A DNA stretch of 27,457 bases, from NCBI RefSeq assembly GCF_000002865.3, contig NW_001865039.1, positions 3,550,501 through 3,577,957 on the forward strand, written 5' to 3'. The notes beneath the pieces were generated by a model. The model was not told the origin of the DNA, ran no database searches, and worked only from the letters and a program-made list of their open reading frames with translations. Both the position numbers and the translations under genes were made by a program. How positions within the stretch are numbered: position 1 is the first letter of the stretch; each line of letters opens with the position of its first letter. This DNA is from Monosiga brevicollis MX1 (taxonomy: Eukaryota; Opisthokonta; Choanoflagellata; Craspedida; Salpingoecidae). Of this stretch, positions 13,102 through 27,457 are shown in pieces.

Positions 13102-14820
13102 ATGGAGGTGGGGACGATGGAGGTGGACGAGCTGGCACAGCGCATGGTGGCGCTCCTGGGCTCACGGCAGTTTGAGACGTGTCTCGTGGTAATGGAGGAG
13201 AGTGAGAGGGAAATTTGCGAGGCTGCTGTGCAGCATTGGTCGGATTCGGTGCGTTTGCCGTGATGAGCATGTGCGCAGCTCCGTCTCTTTTCGGTTTGTG
13301 CTGTGTGTGATGGCGGGGTGGGGATCGTGTTTGTGCGTCCTTTCCCATTCGTTGGATGGTTGTGCTCGTGGCAGAGGGGCTGGACCCTATTGCACAAAGC
13401 CTGCGCGATCAGTGGGGCAGCTTTCATCATCCAACGGCTTCTCGACCTTGGTGCCGATTTTAGTGCTCAAACCGAGGTAAGCCAAAGAGGTGGTCAACGA
13501 CCCAGGCACTCAAGCAGTCTTGTCATTGAGGGCTGGCTCACCCTGCTGCGGAATGAACGACGCAACTACAGCGTGAGCGAACACCACTTCACGTGGCTTG
13601 CAGCACTGGACAATATGAAACGGCTCAACTCTTGCTGGATTGCGGAGCGGACCTTCATGTTTTAGACGTGCGTTCCCCCTTTGCAAGGGTATTTAGCGTG
13701 CATGTTTGGCGTTGCCTCTTGGCTGTTCCTCTGATTGGAACTAAGGGCTCCTGAATTTAGGATTGGGGTTCACCTTTGCACACTGCCAGTGCACACGGGC
13801 ATGTGGCACTCGTTGGCTTGCTCCTTGCTCGAGGCGCAGCTGTAAACGAGCGCGACAAGGTCAGAGGAGTGCCGAAGCCATGCAAACCCGATGCAATCGG
13901 CAGCTTGTCAATGTGGAGCAGTGGGCAGCAGAAGACGCCTATTTGCTTGGGGGTAGGCTGCTCAGGTTTGAGCCTCATGCGGTGCATGGAGGTCTACAGG
14001 ACGGTTTTTGTGCCTTGCACCACGCTTGCTTCCACGATCATCTGGCTGTTGTGGCATGCCTCCTTGAAGCTGGCGCAGAAGTTGATGCTCCAGATCAGGT
14101 AGGTGACATCTCTTCTCGTAATCCCAAACCCTGGTGACCTGCTGTTAGGTCTTGCAGCTGCCCATCACGACGGGTTTTGATGTGTTGGTGCGATAGTTGG
14201 GTCGCACAGCGCTTCTTTTCGCGTGTCGAGCCCGAAGCTGGGATATTGTCCGCGTTCTTCTGGCCCATCAGGCGGATGTCGATCGGGAAGACGAGGTCTG
14301 GCATCCTGGTTCTCACATCATCTGACTCGGCCCTCACTGTCAGCCACAATTCGCTCAAAAACGTCCCCTAACCCTAACCCTAACCCAACGCAGCGTGCGT
14401 TTACGCCCATCAATACTCTCTTGCGCTCGGTGCAGGAGGTGGATGCAACAATATCTGCCGTAAGAATGCTCTGCAGTTTGGTACAGAGCGCACCGCTGTG
14501 TAACTTCTCACGTATTCTACCTGTGTCGATAGGTCCTGTACGAGCTGCTTCAGCGCAGTCGCTGTATGACAGAATACGGCTCATCAGTTGCTGCGGGTGG
14601 GTATTGCAATCCCGGCTACTTGTTGGCGCGCGCTCTCTCATCTGCCGCGGCGGCCTGTCTCCCGCGCGCAGTCGCCGATGACTTGAGACGGATACGCCAC
14701 AATATCTCCGCGCGCCGAACGGCTGTCCTAGTCAGCGTTGGGTGGCGGCAAACAATGGCCCTCTTTGACCACGGTGTTTTGTGCAGCCTTCCAGAAATAC
14801 AATGTCAACTCAGGCACTAG
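13102..14820 (+). CDS. Ankyrin-repeat protein
   Basis: Eight exons join in frame to 331 aa: 13102-13248, 13375-13476, 13572-13667, 13761-13859, 14000-14098, 14197-14295, 14394-14459, 14533-14820. All introns are phase 0. Exon 1 gives a 49-residue helical N-terminus. Exons 2-6 each encode exactly one ankyrin repeat of 32-34 residues, for example RERTPLHVACSTGQYETAQL and DWGSPLHTASAHGHVALVGL, with the usual LL..GAD/AEV..D endings. Ankyrin repeats bind partner proteins; none can be named. The last two exons (about 117 residues) are not recognised. They contain an Ala/Arg-rich helix, and a SOCS box was considered but is not supported. The intron before exon 7 carries telomeric CCCTAA repeats. The gene is head-to-head with NPHP1, which hints at, but does not prove, a ciliary role. 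Exons 7-8 are less certain than exons 1-6. Confidence 0.78.
14366..14386 (-). repeat. Interstitial telomeric repeat, 3.5 copies
   Basis: The plus strand reads CCCTAA three times followed by CCC, i.e. TTAGGG on the minus strand. It lies in the intron between ankyrin-gene exons 6 and 7, 7 bp before the proposed acceptor (AACGCAG). It is perfect and short, as expected of an interstitial tract formed at a repaired break. Confidence 0.95.
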
Positions 14821-15280
14821 AGTTGATGCTGGGTCGACGTCGTAGCCGTGAGCATCGATCTCTGCGCAATTCTCGGGCGACTTGTTTTGTTCCCTTGATG
14901 GTGTGAATGCTGCGCTGTGAGTTTTTTCCAATCGATAATCAGATTTCTCGAGGCATCAAACTTCTTGTTGTCATCGCTGTGAAGCTTCAAGGTGCCCGTG
15001 GATTGTAAAATGTGCTTCATATTTGAGTTTATGGCTAACGTATATCGCCAACGGTCATACCACATGGAATACACCGGCTCTCGTCCGATCGCCGCAGTTA
15101 AGCCATGTTGGGCCATGCTAGTACTATCGTGGGTGACCAGATGGGAATACATGGTGCTGTTGGCCTCATTGATTTTTTTTTTTTCTTTGAAAATTATTAA
15201 TGTCAGACCACGGTTGTGTTCTGTAACGTTCAACAGTTTCTTGGTGCTGCTGATTCGATCGAATCCCACCACTCACCACC
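14821..15280. other. Intergenic region between the ankyrin and helicase-like genes
   Basis: This 460-bp gap marks the junction between ordinary genes and the accessory block. It has a T-rich tract at about 15173-15187 and is more AT-rich than its surroundings. No exon, RNA gene or repeat family is recognised. It should hold the promoter of the gene at 15281. Confidence 0.5.
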
Positions 15281-18200
15281 ATGTCACAGAGCCGTGAAGT
15301 CCCGTGCTGCCATTGTGATTTGACCTTTCACAGTCGGTTGGCCAGAGAACAACATGTTTCACGGGTGCGTTGGACCGTCGCTCTTCCTGTTCACTTTCTT
15401 CTCTGCGAAAAACACATCGCGACGGCTCACTGTCCTCGGACATAGGTTCACCAGAAAAGCACGCGAATCAAGCTGAATGGGGAATTGATTGTCAAGCATC
15501 GAAATGAGGACGGAACCTTTCATTGCCCGGTGGAAGGTTGTGGCTACTTTCATCAACGCGCCAACACCCTCAAGTCTCATCTCCGGCACAACCATGAGAA
15601 CATGCCGACTTCAGTACCGGCTGCGCCTGCCGCCTGCCCTCCTCATCGTCAAAAACCTGCTCGGACGCGCACGAAAAAACGTGTGGTCAAGCTTGATCAA
15701 CAGCACGGCATTGCCGCGGCGCGAATTTTCATGGACGAGATTGGGTGCCTTGTATCCCCCGTCTTTGAGTCTCCAGTGTGCACGCAGTGCGGCCATGTCC
15801 TGAGAGGCAGGGTGACGCATCATCTATTCAAAAAGCACCATGTGCGGTGCAGCCAAGAAGATATTGATGCAGCCATGGCACTCCTGCGCCCGCTGCAGCC
15901 CGAGGAGCCACCGATCGACCTTGGGGCAGAATCTGAGCCTCGTTTGCCTGTTGAAGGCATCCCCATTCTGGACGGTGTGGGTTGCCCCCTGTGTCAGGCA
16001 TGCTTTACGACAAAAGGAAGCCTTTGGAATCACATCGTAGCCGAGCATCCCGACGAACCAGAGGCCAAGCAGCCGCCTCGACGTGTCAAGCTGCAAAAGC
16101 CGCTGCGCGGCGCTGGAGCCCGCTGTATCGAGGTCATTGTCGAAGAAAGCCACGATGCCTCGGCAGCCGACGTCAGCGAAAACGAGGAGGAGCTGGAGGA
16201 GCAGCAGCGGTTCAAACAGCTCATCTCAAGCACCCGGGCCATGGCCTCAGAGGCCGAGGAGAAGCGCTGCCCGCACGGCGTTCACCAGATGCACCCGTTC
16301 TACGATAGCGTGGGCATGACGCTGATCCTGAGTGAGCTGACCCCAGAGCAAATTCTCAAGCTGGGCCACGACACCCCACCCGCACCACTTGTGTCGGGCA
16401 TGCAAGAGCTCTTCTGGGAGGCCCACGAACAATTGTCCCAGCACGGTCTGGCGGCTGCTTCCGTGGCGTCCTTGTTCAAAGATGAAGACTTTCAGGTTCA
16501 GCCGCAATCTTTACCCCAAGTATCCCCTGGCACGATGGGCAGAAACCTGAACATCGCAGCGCGCCTGGTGCATTTTTTACTGCTGCTGGAAGCGATGCCA
16601 GCCCCCGAGCCATCCAGCTTTTTGAGCCAGGTGCTTGCCAGCCGTGGGGAGGCCATAACTACAGCTGCCTTGGCCGTGCAAGAGGCGCTGGATGCGGGAC
16701 TGAGCGGGGCAGATCTTGTCGAGCCCTTGGCGGCACTGTGGCTGGCGCTGGTGAATGCAGAGCTACATCTCTTTGATAACGACAAGGTGCACTTTGTCAA
16801 CGTGTTTTTATTGTGCACGGCCGTTTCCACGGGAAGCGGTGTCTTGCAGGACATCCGGCGCTGGTCCACAACGCTGGCCGGCCTGATTTATATTTTCAAG
16901 CTGTTTTTGCTCCGGTTTGGCAAGGCACAGCGATGGGCCACTGCGGGTAAACTCAGAGCTTTCCTACAGCCCGGACGGCTGGTGCATTTTTTGAGCCAGC
17001 GCATGGCGGCGGCTCGCTCTGTCAGCACGGTCGAGGGGCAGGTTGGAGTGGATATTGAGGTGCAAACGGACGGGGACATGACGGACGAGGCGCTGCACAC
17101 TATCGTTTGTCAAGGTGTTGAACTCAACGTGACAGAGATTGGGACCGCCCTGGCACAGATGCGCAACGATATGAAGGAGGTCCTGGACACGCACATCTTG
17201 CTGGAATCAGGTCTGCGAGAGCAACACATTGGCGAGTATGCTCGGCTACGCTCGAAGGAGGATCGGACCAACAGGGTGAAGAATTGGTGGGTGGGCCATG
17301 GCAGCCCAGCTGAGCGGGCGCTACTTGATCACATTGGCCAGACTCCGAGCTTGCGGCAAGAGTTTATCTGTACAGAGCTCGGGCCAGAAGGAGCCAATGA
17401 AGAGCCGACCTTTCGAGAAGACCGCGTGCGGGAATGGCTTCTATTTGTGGGCAGGTTTAACCAGCTGGCGCTCACCTACACGCACGTGGCTGGAGGTATG
17501 ATTGCGGTTCAGCAAAGACTTTGTTTGAGAAGTTTGACATGCTAATTGTATTATTCTTACCTATTTGCATTGGCTTTGGCGTTTTGTTAGGTCTGCCACC
17601 TCAAGCAACCGTATATCAAGGGCTATCCTACAAAAATGGCGTGGGCCGGCAACGGGCCGTGTTTTTTGCTGAAAGGCAGCTGTCCATATTGACTCGTCTG
17701 GGTAAAACCCACGGGCTCTCTCTAGATGAGCAGCACGCCTATCGGTACATGGACGAGGAAGTCAGCAAGCTGATTTTCATGTATTTGCTGTTGTGCAAGC
17801 CTCTGGAGCAGATGCTAACCAGCTGGCTGGAGAAGCGGGGCGCTCTTCAAATCCCTCGCGATGGTGGGCGTGGAACCTACGACGATGATCAGGAAGAGGA
17901 GGATCCATTGGAGGACGAGCAGGATGAAGACCACATGAGCCACGACGATCTCATGACCTTGCGACGCGAGGTACAAGACGCTCAGCGCCACTATAACAAC
18001 AGCCACCTGCTCTTCAACATTGCGCCTCTGCAGACCATGCTCAGCCCAGCCTCCATCTACGCTGCCTTTCGTCGACAAATGACCGCCTACCTGCATCAGC
18101 CAACGCTGGGGGTGGCCAAGTGGCGACACGCCGCGACCTTCTGGATGACAACATTTGTGACAAACCGGCTCTTTGCCGACCCCGTGAGCACTTTAGGTAG

Positions 18201-21200
18201 CCTGATGCGCACCCAGGCACAGCCCTTGGGCAACATGGCCAAAGACTTCTGTGCTACCACAACAAGCAACCAATTGCAAGCCAAAATGTCATCACGTCTG
18301 ATGCATCAGCTGGCCTCACAAAGCTGGCATGCCTTCTTGGGTCTTGACCGCAAGCGCAGCGTGGCCGAGCTCACAGCCGCCAGGGAAGCTTTGGAAGGTC
18401 GCCACCCCATGAGCTGGAGCGTGTCATCAAAGCTTGAAGCAGACGGGCGCATCATCATGGATACGCAAGCTGAGCATGATATCGGCTACATGACCCAACT
18501 GGCTCAGCAGGCACGCATCTCGTGGGGCCACGGCTTTAAAAGCCAAGAACAATTGGACCTGGCAGCGGCCATTGACCAGCATCGGGCCGAGGATGGCTGG
18601 CTGATTGTTGTCGCGCCGTTAGACATGGACAAGAAGCTTTGTACCATGCCCGAACTGGGTTGTCACCCGCATGCCGGCACGGTGCTGTGGATTGTGCCTT
18701 TTGCGACCTCGGCAGACAATTTGCTGCGGCGTCTGCAGGCGGCTGGCCACAGTGCGCAAAGGTGGCTGGGCCCCTCAACGCCGGTAGCAGCTGGCCTGGG
18801 CGTGCTTATCATCACGACTGACAAGTTTGTTCGCGCGGGCTCTGACGCCCTGCACGCACGTGCTTGCTTCCAGGGCATTAGAACCGTTGTTCTGGACGAG
18901 GCGCACACGCTCATCTCTGATGCCAGCCACCGGAACATGATGGCTCAAGTCGGGGCCTGCGTGGCCTCTGGCGGATGGACCAACATCAAGCGCGTGGCCT
19001 TGACTGATACTTTATGCATGTGCGACCAAGAGCGGCTTTTTCGACAGCTGGGTCAGCAAGCAGGGGGCAAACTGTACCGCCTGGAAACGATGTGTCACAA
19101 TGTGGAGCTGCGTGTGCATCATGGCGACCAGCGGGCCTTCTTGTCGCACGCGCAAGGTCTTGTAGACAGACAGCGGATGACGCGTCAGGCGAATGAGGAG
19201 CGTGTGCACATGATGGTCTTTTGTGACTCGGTGGCCGAGGTGAAGCTGCTGTGTGACCAGCTGCACGCACGCGGCTATGCAGCCTTGCCCTACTATGCAG
19301 ACTTGGAAGAGATGGCGCAGAAGGACCATCTGGCGCGGTGGCAACAGAGTGAATGCGACGTCATTGTCGCCACCAGCTGTTTGAGCATGGATGTGGACCT
19401 GCTTACCGTCCGCCACGTGCTATGGTATGGCAGTGGCCATGACGTGTATACCCTTGTACAGGTGAGTTGTTGCTCAGACGTCCGCGGAACTGTCTCAATT
19501 AAAAAAAAAAAAAAAATCAATGGTTGGTTGAGCTAATGGTGTGCATGTAATCGGCTGTAGGCATTTGGTCGCGCTGGCCGTGATGGAAAGGGCGGAGCTG
19601 CCGAGCTGTGGCTGCCAGTCAGGTGCGGCCCAGCACCAGGCATGGAAGCCTTTGTCGAGGGCAGTGTGTGTCGAAGGTGGACGCTTGGCAAAATGTTGGA
19701 TCCCCGCGCTGCTACATGCCTTGCCACCGGCCAGGCTCTCTGTGACGTGTGCACGCAAATGGCACAGGAAGTGCAGCCAAGCATCGTCACACATCGTGAA
19801 CATGTCAATCCATCAGGCGAGACTGCAGTGATGGCTGATGTATCGCCACGGTCAAGTGCTGGACTTGATGCAGCCACCGCAGAGCCTATGCCTGTGTCAG
19901 ATTCACCCACGGTGTCAGATTTCGAGCTTCAGGCACAGCGACAGGAAGAAGCTCGGGCACAGCCAGTGCAGAGCAGTGACCATCGTCAAGCTCCACCATC
20001 CGGCGTGACGACAGCCTCTGAAGCAGGCTCGGCCATGGCTGATGCTTTGCCAAGGCCACGTGCAGCGCGGCTTGACAAAGAGGCCGCAGAACCCATCATG
20101 TCTCTGCCAGCAACACCGACGACATCTGACTTTGAGCTTGAGTTTGATTCCCTAACAGAACTGCAAGAAGATGATGCACCATGTTCTTCCGTGCCAGGTC
20201 TGCGGGTCAAAACCACGTCAGAGGGTGAAAGTGTGTCTCAGCCCGCAACAGAGTCTGCAGCTTCAAACGAGGCTACGCAGATTCACACGGCTTTATTACC
20301 TAGTCTTGGAGCACCGCTGCCATCTCTACCGGTACCTTCGGCCTTGCCGATGCGTTTGCCCGTGCCTTCTGCTCTCGATGCCTTGCCACCACGGCCCAGG
20401 GCAAACGTGCCCTCGGCAGCGCTGCGTCATACGCGTGCCCGCGCTCTGGCGGAACGCACAGCTGCCGTAGACGCACCCATGGAGAGCTCTTCCGATTGTG
20501 ACGACCCTCTTGATGCAGACACCGCCGCAGAGGCCGAGGCCACGCAGCACCCTTGCTCTTTGTTGGGCAACCAAGGGTCTGGACTATCTGGCGCAAATCC
20601 TGCATGGCCTTCTGCCAAACGAGTGACATCTGCTACATTGCCCCCGGCTGCTTTATCATCGCGAAGAAGTGAGGCGGCGTCGATGCCACGCCTGAGATCA
20701 AACAAGCGAGCCAGGACGACGCGCTCGCGCCTGATCCACAAGGCAGCGGCTGACAAGTTTCTGGATGCGCTGAGGTTGATGCACGGCTATTGCATGCCAT
20801 GTACCATTCGCCAGTCTCAAGCCGTCTGGCAAGCTCAACATATCTGTCCCGAATCAGACGACACATGCACCCGGTGCCATCTCGCGGGGCACAGAACCGA
20901 CGAGTGCAACATTGATTTTGAATCTGCCACACGAGAATGTTGCGCCAGATGTGGCATGCCATCTAGGATCGGCGGCTACCCCTTGAAGCATCTGCCGGGC
21001 TGTGCAATCGATAAAGGCCTTGGACGAGTCTTGAGCTCCATCGTCCTCCTTGCCGACTGTCATCCGCGGCTGCGCCAACTGGCCAAGCGAATGGGATACG
21101 ATCTTCGGCCGGGGACGCTGCAGACGCGACATTTTCGCGAAAGATTTGTCGCATGGCTGTACATGGAAGACAAGCATCTGCCGGCAGGCCATTGGCACCT

Positions 21201-21264
21201 TGTGGAGTTTGTGATTGAAAGCGTTGAGATTTTGATCGGGGCAGCCGCGAGGGCTGTGATATGA
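15281..21264 (+). CDS. Zinc-finger/OrsD-like RecQ helicase, telomere-linked type
   Basis: Exons 15281-15364, 15446-17495, 17591-19461 and 19561-21264 join in frame to 1902 aa from a CCACC-ATG. Zinc fingers: C9/C12/H24/H30 (split by intron 1), C55/C60/H73/H78, an OrsD-type VCTQCGHVL..HHLFKKHH (139-160) and C208/C211/H224/H229. A long helical region ends in AGGLPPQATVYQGLSYKN, comparable to the GGxPxRxTE segment of fungal OrsD/telomere-linked helicases. The helicase part has DEAH (1147-1150), a lobe-2 segment, and motif VI QAFGRAGRDG (1335-1344). A RecQ-type Cys cluster follows (C1372, C1388, C1396, C1399), then a ~345-residue Ser/Pro-rich linker and a Cys/His-rich C-terminus (about 1745-1815). 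Walker A is degenerate (APLDMDKKLC, 1053-1062) and motif III reads TDT instead of SAT, so ATPase activity is doubtful. Subtelomeric maintenance or mobility is inference. A decayed paralogue starts near 25050. Confidence 0.87.
19501..19516 (+). repeat. A-tract in helicase-gene intron 3
   Basis: About 16 consecutive A residues lie between the donor at 19462 and the acceptor at 19560. An A-run on the sense strand is not a polypyrimidine tract, so it probably arose by slippage or from an old poly(A). Confidence 0.85.
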
Positions 21265-22115: not shown

Positions 22116-24446
22116 ATGGATGATGATGGACCGTCGCTGGATGATGGTCTGCAGCAGTTGCGGCTTGAAGAACAAAGCCCTGAACGGTCTGAAAGCGAAC
22201 AGCCACAACAAGCTTCCCAAAATGAGCTTGCGCGGCTGAACGCCCAAGTGCGTCTAGCCGAGGCCGAAGCGCGCAAGGCCGAGGCCGAAGCGCGCAAGGC
22301 CGAAGCCGAGGCCGAAGCGCGTATCGCCGAGCTTCATGCCGAGGCCGAAAAAGTGCGTCGAGCCGAGGCCGAAAAAGCGCGTCGCGAGGAGAAGCGTAGA
22401 GTGTGCACTGAAAAGGTTTGTCGTGCTCCGTCTGGGGTGATTACAACATCAAGGCCTACCTACCACCTTTGCACACGCCAGCCTCACTTGATTTGCGGCC
22501 GTTAGATCAAAATTTTACAAAGCGTCTTTTGCGGCCTCACTTCGGACCACATAAAGACCCTGCGAAAGAAGATGATGGACCTTGCTGATGATGTTTTTGA
22601 TGAAAATGTCGTCGATCTTATCAACAACGAAACCTCATCAGAAGCGATGAAGGCCCGGTTCCCCTTGAAAGGTGTGTCTGTCGTTGGTTGTCACCCACCC
22701 CAGATCTGGCCTGCTCTTGGTCATTGCTGTGCGCACCTGAACACAGTTGGCGAGCAACAGCACTACATGACCGTTGTTGATTGCACGTGTGCAGGCTTTT
22801 CGTGGCAAACAAAAAAATCGGTCATTGGCAAGATGCCGTCGATAGCGCCCTCGCAAACCCCATCTTTGACCGCTGCAAATCAACTACTCAACTGCATCGT
22901 CGCAGAACTTCCCTGCAGCCACCACTACTACGCAGCAAAAATTGTCCGGCACATTGATGAGCTTTGCGCGGATTCCGAGTTGACGATCGACAACGAGCTG
23001 ATTGAGAACCTCGAGTGGGCGGTCAAGGTTGAGCGACATTCCCGATTGTCTGTGCTCCAGCAGGAAAGCGACATCTCTTCTCGACTGAGTATCGTGCTGC
23101 GTCGCTACTTTGGCCTGGACGTTGTCCATCAATATTCCATCGGCAACCAGAACACCCATGTTGATTGGGCGGGATTTGATGATAGCCACCACGTTGTCGT
23201 CATGGGCGAGTGCAAAAAGGCCCCGCAGAACTTCAACGAATACGGGGGACAGGTTGCCAATGAACTCTTGCGACTGAGAGCCATCGCAACACGTTATGAG
23301 AGCGGCAAGAAGTCTCAGGGGCTGCCGGGCCAGATGCGCACAGAGTGGCCCATTGTCAACATCAACGTGGTAGGAGATTATGTGAGCGCATACCTGGCCT
23401 TGATGGTTTCTGAAAGGCGCTGGGACTTGGTCAAGCCCTACTTGTCGCAGCTGCTGCCTGCACTTGAAGGCCACAGTCTCAACCAAGATGCAGTCTCTGG
23501 AGTGTTCTTTTTGCGCCTCGGTTGTGCAAGCTTATCGAATGATTCGAAGCAGGTCCAAAGCATCCTGCAAGCGTGCAAGGATTTTGTGCATCAGGAGTTG
23601 GCAGGCTTGCTGGCAAATGGGACAGAAAGAAAAACGCGGCCATCATTGCCCCAACAACCCTTTCCTTGCCCTTTCGAGGACCTACACAACTGGAAGTTGA
23701 TTGAATCGTTTGGTCCCAACGTGCAGGTCTACAGCGACAAGAAGCAACGCAAGGTGTATAAGCACTTTGACTACTGGGGTCGCACAGACCTCTGCAGCGC
23801 TTTGAGCAATTGCGTGGCTCCCGCAAATTGCCGCTGCCCGCCCGACGACAAACTTCTGGAAAAACTCCGGCGACTGGATGCGACGGGCACCTTCTATCAG
23901 AAATGGAAGGTGACGGAGCTTGCGACTGCCGTGCATGTGCTCAGCTACCCTTACGTGGAGCTGGCACACCCCACCAAGCTCGAGCAATTGGTCCAAGTCA
24001 TCCGCCAATTGGAGGCCATACACAGCGTTGACTTTGTGCACGGCGACATTCTCCCTCGCAACATTCTTTTTTGCAGCGACTGGGACGGGCATCCTGCGGC
24101 CTTTCTCATTGACTTTGATCTCGGCCGGTTCCTCCCAGCCGATGACGCCAACGGAGCCAATAGGGCTTTGTATGTCTCCAATTATGCCGTGAAAGCGAAG
24201 GCGCTGAAGCCGTATCGTCACGATGATGCATACCCAAATGAAGCCATGGACAAGGAGCACGATGGCTTTGCCTTGGCACGTGTCATGCAGGACTTTTTAG
24301 AAGATGACGATAATCGGAAGGAGTTGGTGGCTGCGCTGGAGGAGCTCCGCCTGGATGACGCTGCCACGCTGTGTATGGAGTGCGAGCTTTTGTCGGAGTT
24401 CAAGGTTTCTGTGTCTGGCAAGGCAACCGGGAGTCCTCATAAGTGA
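22116..24446 (+). CDS. Coiled-coil, PD-(D/E)XK nuclease and protein-kinase fusion (Crinkler/RHS-type effector layout)
   Basis: Exons 22116-22415, 22506-22671 and 22795-24446 give 705 aa; the 123-bp second intron has no stop and is a multiple of three, so an unspliced 746-aa form is possible. The start has the context CACC-ATG-G. Residues ~36-97 are a highly charged coiled coil built of AEAEARK repeats. A nuclease fold of the PD-(D/E)XK type follows: SRLSIVLRRYFGL, then HVDWAGF (D279) and VVVMGECKKA (E294, K296). The C-terminal half is kinase-like: KVYKHF (K478 as the beta-3 lysine), FVHGDILPRNILF (D573, N578) and LIDFDLGR (D595, DFG changed to DFD). This nuclease-kinase order is known from Crinkler and related effectors thought to derive from transposons. 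Whether it is secreted, acts on DNA in its own cell, or is selfish is unknown. No canonical Crinkler N-terminal header was seen. Confidence 0.78.
22255..22400 (+). repeat. Tandem Ala-Glu-Ala-(Arg/Lys) coding repeat
   Basis: Short units such as GCCGAGGCCGAAGCGCGCAAG recur with small variations inside exon 1 of the nuclease-kinase gene and encode its charged coiled coil. The near-identical units suggest recent slippage expansion, so copy number may vary between strains. Confidence 0.8.
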
Positions 24447-24734: not shown

Positions 24735-25049
24735 CGCACACTACCCTGATCCTATCGGTGGCAATGATTTAATACTGGGTGACCAAGCTGTTTATGGTGC
24801 GTGTATTGACATGTGAACATGTAAAACGTCGAATATTTGAAGTAACGACCTCGAGAAAGAGAGAGTTGGAGTCAGCTTTCAGGTGCTTGAATTACCGAAC
24901 CGGCTCACCCATGTCACACACATTAATCACAATGTTCCTCGGAACAGGGCACCATGTGCTAGGTATCTCACATTTGCCATATGGACGATGTCCACAGAGC
25001 GCACGCAGAATCGACTATCCCTCCCACGGGGCACGCTACTCTTTTTTCA
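24447..25049. other. Intergenic region with AC microsatellite
   Basis: About 600 bp lie between the nuclease-kinase stop and the first detectable homology of the decayed helicase copy. Apart from the microsatellite nothing is recognised. A relic of exon 1 of the helicase copy (first zinc finger) was sought by eye and not found. Confidence 0.5.
24665..24741. repeat. (AC)n microsatellite
   Basis: About 31 perfect CA units are followed by imperfect CACACACG units. It is the longest simple repeat in the window. Confidence 0.97.
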
Positions 25050-26892
25050 TAAACACAGGCGTATGCGTGCATCCAAGCGTGTGGTCAACATTGACCAGTA
25101 GAACGGGCGTTACTGGGCATAGATGCTCGTGTCCGACATCAGGGGATTCGTGCCCCTTCTTCAGCGTTTTTAATGTACACGTGCCGTCAATGCGTCCTCA
25201 GCGGCAATGTTCCCCGTCATTTGCTCAATAAACATCATGTACGTTGCACCCAAGAGGACATTGTAACGCTACAGCACTCCTACGTCCACTGCAGCCCGAG
25301 GGGCCCTCGATGGACACTGGGGCAAGGTCTGAGTCTAGTATACCTGTGGAAGGCATCCCCATTCTGAACGGTGTGGGTGGCCCCCAGTGCCGAGCATGCT
25401 ACACGTCAAAAAATAGCCTGCACTGCCACTTGCACACCGAGCATGTTGGTGACCCCGGTATCAATCAGCCGCCACGACTTGTCAAGCTGCAAAAGCGCTG
25501 CGTGGTGCTGGGGCCCGCTGTGTCGAGGTCATTGGCGAAGAGAGCCACGACGCTTCGGCAGCCGTTGTCAGCGAGAACGAGCAGGAGCTGGATGAGCAGC
25601 AGCGGTTCAAGCAGCTCATCTCAAGCACCCGGGTCATGGCCTCAGAGGCTGAAGATGAGCGATGCCCGCACGGCGTTCACCAGATGCATCCGTTCTACGA
25701 CAGTGCGGGCATAACGCTGGTCATCAACGAGCTGAAGCCAGAGCGCATGGTCAACCTGGGCCACTGCACCCGTCAACGCTCCTCGATTCGAGCATGTATC
25801 GTTATTCCGGACGGCCTATGAGTAGCTATCGGATCAGGGCTTGGCCGCCGCTGCGGTGACGCGTCTGTTTGACGGCAATGAAGGGCAGTATCAGCATCGC
25901 CCCATGCGGCAAGTGTAGCCGCAAACCGTCAGCAGGTACCTGAGTCTTGGAACACGCCTGGTTCAATTTTTGCTGCTGCTGAAAGCCACGCCAGCCCCCG
26001 ACCCGTCGAGCTTTCTGGGCCAGGTGCTTGCCAGCCGTGGCCCTGCGGTAATTGATGCCACCGTGGCTCTGAGGGCGGGCCTGGACGCTGAAATGACCAA
26101 GAAAGAGCTGGTCGAGCCCCTCACGTCCCTGTGGCTGGCCCTGGTGGAGGTGAAGCTGAGCCTCTTTGACGACGACAAGGTGCACTTTGTCAACGTCTTC
26201 TTACTGTGCACGGCCGTGTCCAAAGGAAGCGGCATCCTGCAAGACATCAGGCAGTGGACCACGACGCCCGCTGGACTGCTGTACGTTTTCAAATTGTTCC
26301 TGCTTCGCCGTGGCAAGAATGAGTCATGGTCAGTGTCCAACGAGTTTAGGCCGTATATGCAGCCCGGCCGATTGGTGAATTTCTTGAGCCAGCGCAAGAG
26401 CATGGCACGAACAGCGAGCATGGCCGAGGGGCAGGCTGGAGTCGACGTCGAGGTCCGAACCGATGGCGACGAGACGCTGCGCACCATTGTCTGTCGAGGC
26501 ATTGAGCTCAATGTGGAGGAGCTCGGGGCCGCATTGGAGCAGATGCGCAAAGACATGACGGAAATATTGGACAAGCACCTCTTGTTGGTCTCAGGCCTGC
26601 GGACAAAGTACGATAACAAATATGAGCGGCTGCGATTGAAGGAGGATCGGACCAACAGGGTCAAGAACTGGTGGGTGGGCCATGGCAGTCCAGCCGAGAC
26701 AGCGCTGTTTGATCACATTGGCCAGACCCCGAGTCTGCGGCAAGAGTTTATCCAAACCGAGCATGGGTCCAGTGGCGAGCTGACCTTTCGAGAGGACAGG
26801 GTGCGGGTATGGCTTTCATATGTGTGCAGGTTCAACGAGCTAGCCCTCACCTCCACGCACATTGCCGGAGGTACGATTGGAATCAGGCCGTC

Positions 26893-26922
26893 TCTTTTTT
26901 TTTTTCTTTTTTTTTTTTTTCT
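26893..26922 (+). repeat. Long T-tract in the intron of the helicase copy
   Basis: Two runs of T separated by single C residues fill the intron 26871-26959 and serve as its polypyrimidine tract. The matching intron of copy 1 (17496-17590) lacks such a long run, so it expanded after duplication. Confidence 0.85.
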
Positions 26923-27330
26923 TTGTTCCTGCCACTCATGCCTGCTTGCCTTTGACTAGGTCTGCCGCCACGAGCCTCTGTGTATCAAGGGCTGTCCTAC
27001 AAAAACGGCGTGGGCCGGCAACGAGCCGCGTTTTTTGCCGAGAAGCAGCTCTCCATATTGACCCGCGTGAGCAAGACCTACTGGCTGTCCCTGAACGAAC
27101 AGCACACCTTTCGATACATGGACCAGGAAATCAGCACGCTGATATTCATGTATTTGCTGCTGTGCAAGCCTCTGGAGCACATGCTGAGCAGCTGGCTGCA
27201 AAAGCGGGGCGGGCTGGACACCCTCGACGACGAGAATGGCTTTCACAATGCCGAGCAGGACGACGAAGATTTCCTCGACGACGAGCTGGATGAAGACCAC
27301 ATGAGCCACGACGAGACGATGACATTGCGA

Positions 27331-27347
27331 TAGGGTTAGGGTTAGGG
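27331..27347 (+). repeat. Interstitial telomeric repeat inside helicase-copy coding sequence
   Basis: TAGGGTTAGGGTTAGGG directly follows the codons for MTLR. In copy 1 the matching position holds 13 different bases (17965-17977), after which both copies resume with ACGCTC. The insert is thus bounded by homologous coding sequence on both sides. It introduces a TAG and a net +4 shift. Confidence 0.96.
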
Positions 27348-27457
27348 ACGCTCGAAACCACTACAACCTCCTCTTCAATATTGCGCCCCTGCAGGCGATG
27401 GTCAGCCCAGCCACCATCTATGCGGCATTTCGTCGACAAATGACCACGTACCTGCAT

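Follow-up and report, generated by a model that had tools for sequence, protein, structure and literature searches.

A short telomeric repeat inside a decaying, end-linked helicase copy of Monosiga brevicollis: a probable trace of break repair

The stretch of DNA analyzed here, called the window, is the terminal 27,457-base portion of contig C56 (3,577,957 nt) of Monosiga brevicollis, a protist that grows in culture. The assembly amounts to 39.47 Mb in 57 contigs, and window base 27457 is the final base of its contig. Two copies of one helicase family lie on the plus strand of the window. Copy 1 (15485-21264), a member of the A subfamily, was delimited by protein and domain matches. Copy 2 (25048-27457), recognized by protein matches, is a decayed B-subfamily copy that carries premature stops and frame changes and is cut by the contig end. 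The helicase domains of the family were found in copy 1: Pfam matches above cut-off were obtained for OrsD in the first exon (3.6e-08) and for Helicase_C in the second exon (1.5e-08), and a DEAD match (0.0031) stayed under its cut-off. An intron is likely at about 17496-17590, as suggested by a GT...AG pattern and by the related protein P0010, which has no such stretch. The frame at 19642-21264 is probably a further exon of copy 1, its start resembling by eye the tail of protein P0005. A 5S rRNA gene is located upstream of copy 1 at 15047-15165. A 5S gene situated about 6.6-7.1 kb upstream of the second helicase part, in the same orientation, is also seen on C47, C48 and C11; genome-wide there are 32 5S matches, many of them away from helicases. 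Between both helicase copies, a 624-residue frame (22572-24446) gave weak kinase-like matches, all under their cut-offs.

When the second part of copy 1 was compared with the genome at the protein level, 73 matches were obtained, and a DNA search with 26948-27457 returned 38. Of the latter, 25 (window copy included) span the site of the repeat described below, and the 13 partial matches without this site were excluded. All 25 site-spanning copies are transcribed toward the nearer contig end and lie 0 to 34.7 kb from it, a distance measured to contig ends, which are not proven chromosome ends. An earlier reading made from the sequence alone (the sequence-only reading) had called the gene telomere-linked, and this label fits a family whose 25 copies are all outward-facing and within 35 kb of a contig end; its closest known counterparts are the telomere-linked helicase genes of M. 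brevicollis and of fungi. Robertson, in 2009, is said to have named telomere-linked helicase genes in M. brevicollis; the family as a whole is one that we take to be of the RecQ type. Identity to the window copy and the alignment divide the copies into two subfamilies, A with copy 1 and ten others and B with the window copy and 13 others. The five closest full-length sisters of the window copy are 92-94% identical to it over 510 nt, and the others score lower. The protein collection holds 12 relatives, nine of them named Monosiga brevicollis MX1 proteins and some named DNA 3'-5' helicase. For several of the family proteins the source record is short (2 to 20 kb), which suggests that further helicase copies exist beyond the 57-contig set.

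Copy 2 carries several lesions. Compared with the first exon of copy 1, it matches in several frames and has stops at query residues 316 and 347; further stops at query residues 73, 80 and 98 fall in a stretch of 35% identity and are not trustworthy, and the sequence before about 25268 matches copy 1 weakly. The second query also shows a stop, at residue 18, but this position is intronic and was set aside as uninformative. Four B sisters (L052, L037, L051 and L040) cover the first exon from residues 184, 275, 282 and 288, respectively. None of the four has a stop in the covered part of this exon, residues 316 and 347 included, and all four are without the frame change that copy 2 has at about residues 297-309; its frame change at about residue 205 is absent from L052, the sole sister reaching there. 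The sisters have lesions of their own, among them a frame change in L052 near residue 653 and second-exon stops in L037 and L040. Copy 2 is now, as predicted from its stops and frame changes, a pseudogene.

In the second exon of copy 2, positions 27331-27347 of the plus strand read TAGGGTTAGGGTTAGGG, which corresponds to 2.8 telomere units. The insert lies between TTGCGA (27325-27330) and ACGCTC (27348-27353); these letters, and the 13 other bases found in copy 1 at 17965-17977, are as the sequence-only reading had given them. The left flank (27225-27330, plus strand) belongs to the second exon and is identical over 106 nt to the copy on contig C12, and the right flank (27345-27457, plus strand) continues the same exon to the contig end. 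Sequence of the end-linked helicase family is continuous on either side of 27331-27347, and the observation of a telomere repeat inside a helicase copy is confirmed. Chance was ruled out as its origin: TTAGGGTTAGGG is expected in the window with a mean of 0.00 (100 shuffles), and the reversed pattern has no match in the genome. The G-rich strand points 5' to 3' toward the contig end. The stretch is a short interstitial telomeric sequence, a kind already known, whose non-terminal position holds insofar as the assembly is correct. The repeat does place a TAG in frame immediately 3' of CGA, but the earlier statement that it had broken the frame is not supported in that form: given the further lesions in copy 2, the insert did not demonstrably disable a working gene.

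The state of the site before the insertion can be read from the sister copies, whose alignment had been proposed as a check by the sequence-only reading. The repeat is missing from all 24 other copies that span the site, each of which reads CGCGAGGT followed by a short variable part. Neither TTAGGG nor an intermediate state was seen at the insert position in any of these 24 aligned copies, and the homologous site is empty, as after a one-step insertion. This comparison rules out a spliced intron or normal family sequence as the source of the repeat. Five family proteins (P0001, P0003, P0004, P0005 and P0010; 5/12 inspected) are uninterrupted across the site. The copy on C12 is nearest for both flanks, with 3 mismatches in 233 positions on the left and 0 in 88 on the right, followed by the copy on C50 (4/233 and 3/87). 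A common nearest copy on either flank fits insertion in place and gives no support to a chimera joining two different members of the family.

Between 27091 and the contig end, four substitutions separate the window from C12 over 353 flanking bases. They are confined to 27097-27224, and the only further differences are the repeat and a 9-nt deletion. Where C12 has CGCGAGGTTC (10 nt), the window has TAGGGTTAGGGTTA (14 nt, 27331-27344). The right flank shared with C12 begins at GGGACGCTC, and the GGG at 27345-27347 is present in the ancestral right flank too and therefore counts as junction microhomology. The exchange of 13 by 17 nt proposed in the sequence-only reading has to be revised to 10 by 14 nt, the former values having been derived from a comparison with copy 1, which belongs to the other subfamily and is 77% identical to 26948-27457. 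Along 27345-27457 there is no substitution relative to C12, and the sole break is the 9-nt deletion between 27367 and 27368 on the plus strand, 20 nt downstream of the repeat, where C12 has AACAGCCAT. In the alignment, this deletion is private to the window copy (0/24 others). The loss of 10 nt, the GGG shared on the right and the nearby 9-nt deletion are modifications of the end-joining type. The event had also been described as dated and of known ancestral sequence. The ancestral state is indeed given by the 24 copies, and the date is reduced to a relative bound, the four substitutions in 353 flanking bases that separate the window from C12. It might be argued that the repeat grew by slippage and point mutation from a pre-existing telomere-like stretch, as C12 has GGTTCGGG at the right junction. 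Such growth is scarcely credible, as a unit would have to be duplicated and several substitutions would have to fall in a stretch that is otherwise free of substitutions relative to C12, and the two other empty sites described below, on C50 and C54, are without such a seed.

The position of the repeat, 110 nt before the end of contig C56, calls for caution about the assembly. The chromosome arm might in reality end in a telomere right after TTGCGA, and a read from another copy might have been joined to it where GGTTAGGG resembles GGTTCGGG. Misassembly had been named as a caveat from the beginning, and it is weightier than stated then, since the contig ends only 110 nt beyond. Four other contigs likewise end within or shortly past helicase-family copies, at 84 nt (C43), 418 nt (C49), 717 nt (C11) and 720 nt (C51) beyond the matched helicase stretch. 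A pattern search of all contigs of the assembly revealed no TTAGGG array of at least 15 nt at any contig end, and terminal telomeres therefore seem to be absent from the assembly. Against an artificial join stands the 9-nt deletion on the right flank, whose absence from the 24 other copies shows that none of them can simply have supplied this flank as a stray read. In addition, C12 is nearest for both flanks, and twelve comparable arrays are found in the interior of contigs, with clean empty sites for two. A misassembly is considered unlikely on these grounds.

These other arrays were identified by a genome-wide search for GGGTTAGGGTTAGGG, which gave at least 15 matches merging to 13 sites, as opposed to none for the reversed pattern; all genome counts of repeats are lower bounds. 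Leaving the insert aside, at least 12 TTAGGG arrays measure 15 nt or more, all of them well within contigs; the two on C43 duplicate each other. No overlap was observed between the 12 arrays and the helicase matches of the protein or DNA genome searches. A telomeric 18-mer had at least 7 matches in the genome versus 0 for its reversed control. Arrays of 12 nt were dropped as added evidence, since at least 26 matches face 4 for the reversed pattern and isolated two-unit matches are near chance. For 11 of the 12 arrays, with one C43 copy standing for both, the 90-nt flanks were searched against the genome, and clean empty-site paralogues with the same kind of replacement were recovered for two. 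At C50:476288, CT is replaced by TTAGGGTTAGGGTTAG, so that the site reads CTTGG-TTAGGGTTAGGGTTAG-GGTGCTG as compared to CTTGG-CT-GGTGCTG in both of its paralogues; on its left side, this array shows GG in register. At C54:1684855, where the five paralogues all read CAT-GC-ATCAGGA, the GC has given way to 41 nt of TTAGGG-like repeat. A third paralogue of the C43 array is too diverged at the spot to serve as an empty site, and the flanks of the other eight arrays tested match their own place only in the genome search. The second interstitial array of the window (14366-14386, minus strand, 3.5 units of TTAGGG) has no paralogue, only its own place being matched genome-wide. Stop-free stretches extend over 74 to 265 codons at the other arrays and over 150 at the insert, in a rough test that does not settle coding status.

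With a probability of roughly two in three, the insert is a short interstitial telomeric sequence that arose from double-strand break repair in a decaying, end-linked helicase copy. The chromosome would have broken within the second exon of the copy, with a loss of some 10 nt. At the 3' end on the centromere side (...TTGCGA), slightly more than two telomere repeats of the G-strand would then have been added, most likely by telomerase, and the repeat tail would have joined the distal fragment by a short GGG match, possibly with GGTTAGGG pairing with the ancestral GGTTCGGG. The 9-nt deletion 20 nt away may stem from the same repair. A break, the addition of telomeric repeats and rejoining had already been suggested by the sequence-only reading, and this sequence of events is still the best reading. 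The replacement itself is borne out by the 24 sister copies, by the position of C12 as nearest copy on both flanks and by the two analogous arrays; we infer the break, telomerase as the source of the repeats and the route of joining.

The two junctions differ in what they tell about this course. On the left (...CGA, then TAGGG), no base is in register with the repeat, and no priming signature is therefore present there; in-register bases at an extended 3' end are a tendency and no requirement, and the left end of the insert does not have them. On the right, GGG is in register, and one step further GGTTCGGG matches GGTTAGGG at 7 of 8 positions. When 11 neighbouring 8-mers are compared with every phase of the telomere repeat, a match of at least 7/8 is reached at 0.6% of random window positions. 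The G-strand runs toward the contig end, as is expected if the proximal end was extended. Telomerase extension followed by microhomology joining appears to be the likeliest course.

A telomeric DNA fragment, or DNA reverse-transcribed from telomeric RNA, might also have been ligated into the break in the absence of any extension by telomerase. This route has been proposed for some mammalian arrays in the accessible part of one study (PMC7215372). Such a capture would leave an identical scar, which counts against the telomerase reading, and a left junction with no base in register agrees with it. It is nevertheless regarded as quite unlikely, because the GGG match on the right and the orientation of the repeat suit 3' extension of the proximal end, the C50 array does have GG in register at its left end and a telomerase gene exists in the genome. 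A third course would be telomere healing followed by recombination, in which the broken arm first received a new cap and a later exchange with a sister copy restored the distal sequence. The sisters are similar enough for an exchange to be plausible, the five closest full-length copies reaching 92-94% identity over 510 nt. Two events would be needed where one would do, however, both flanks are nearest to C12 and only 2.8 units are left, so that healing with later exchange is very improbable.

Extension by telomerase presupposes the enzyme, whose catalytic subunit (TERT) had, according to the accessible part of a previous survey, not been found in M. brevicollis or Salpingoeca rosetta despite TTAGGG telomeres in both (PMC5405514). 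In a profile search of the genome, the Pfam Telomerase_RBD model matched C48:754256-754531 with 55.2 bits (cut-off 25, E 2.3e-13). It matched none of 14 control genomes, a weak control, as 11 of them are prokaryotes by name. The candidate telomerase reverse transcriptase gene lies at L060:2769-4684 (G000:C48:754268-756183) and was delimited by Telomerase_RBD and structure matches. Among its five pieces, the RNA-binding piece, searched by itself, matches Telomerase_RBD above cut-off (7.5e-15), three have no Pfam match, and the fifth has a reverse-transcriptase match of 23.7 bits, under the cut-off of 29.6. Comparison with solved structures retrieved TERT in 15 of 16 matches for the RNA-binding piece (best 3.7e-05), in 5 of 6 for the piece with TEGISQGSVLSTMFCNYFYGDLE (best 1.7e-08) and, weakly, in 5 of 5 for the piece with VDDFLLVT (best E 0.014). 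An RNA-binding domain and reverse-transcriptase motifs of the TERT type were found together in the C48 gene, the correspondence of its sequence motifs to those of TERT being our assumption. All 19 matches to the C48 query in a large protein collection carry Telomerase_RBD; 11 of them are named and none of these is from Monosiga, in a search that covers about 340 to 1070 residues and would miss a Monosiga model of other length. Taken together, these matches place a predicted gene for the telomerase catalytic subunit on C48, perhaps an unannotated one. The literature searched, whose coverage leaves out most subscription papers, contains no report of a choanoflagellate TERT.

The nearest known counterparts of the insert are the short interstitial arrays of mammals, which are inserted in one step, often with short deletions. 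In horse, 31 of 40 informative loci have one to six in-register bases at the 3' end, and deletion of a short sequence is the commonest change, as far as the accessible part of the study extends (PMC7215372). The Monosiga insert resembles the primate, rodent and horse arrays of that part of the study in its few internal TTAGGG units, its one-step origin, its small deletions and its empty homologous loci; unlike most horse loci, it has no in-register base at its left end (PMC7215372). It also differs from the mammalian arrays, as they are presented there, in being placed in the coding sequence of an end-linked gene family of a choanoflagellate, and in that its empty state is read from paralogues in one genome and not from related species. 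In S. rosetta, six telomeres without shared subtelomeric genes have been called aberrant or newly formed, which suggests, from the accessible part of that paper, that new telomeres at breaks are not foreign to choanoflagellates (PMC4054682). The accessible parts of two further papers describe the addition of telomere repeats at a subtelomeric break in Plasmodium (PMC5550746; PMC11458181). Such healing leaves a terminal telomere there, whereas helicase sequence goes on past the Monosiga repeat. The repeat inside it would set the window copy apart from known telomere-linked helicases. In the literature searched, again with most subscription papers outside its coverage, neither this insertion nor any telomere repeat within a helicase copy of this kind is described, although the work of Robertson (2009) may mention it.

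It is tentatively proposed, at somewhat less than even odds, that choanoflagellates, the closest relatives of animals, use a conventional telomerase to insert telomere repeats at double-strand breaks and that this process is older than animals. In M. brevicollis, such events would be readable against paralogues in the pre-insertion state, one of them inside an end-linked helicase family. If so, interstitial arrays from break repair, described in mammals, would extend to the sister lineage of animals, and the sequences from before the insertion would survive as paralogues in the same genome. The C48 telomerase would make the mechanism testable in a culturable protist. It would also end the puzzle of TTAGGG telomeres without a recognised catalytic subunit, as that puzzle appears in the accessible part of the survey (PMC5405514).

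Some features of the helicase family deserve mention in their own right. Among 11 A-subfamily helicases (window 17521-19536 and loci L029-L058), ten have DMDK or GMDK in the nucleotide-binding stretch, the eleventh, L031, being missed by the nucleotide-binding pattern. The B copies seen have GMGKT or GMGKA there; lysine and DEAH box are retained. Together with the open frames in many A copies, this makes for a changed yet conserved helicase set at contig ends, which is odd. Similarity to the window copy stops near 27084-27091 in the copies on C12 (L057, near 1429), C55 (L042, near 1199) and C49 (L050, near 1524). The C12 and C55 copies have a common upstream sequence, as if a 5'-truncated copy had been duplicated. 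Finally, the helicase exon also occurs as six small fragments, four at scattered places on C9 and the others on C7 and C14. They are without about query positions 285-470, and in five of the six the stretch after this gap is also among the matches.
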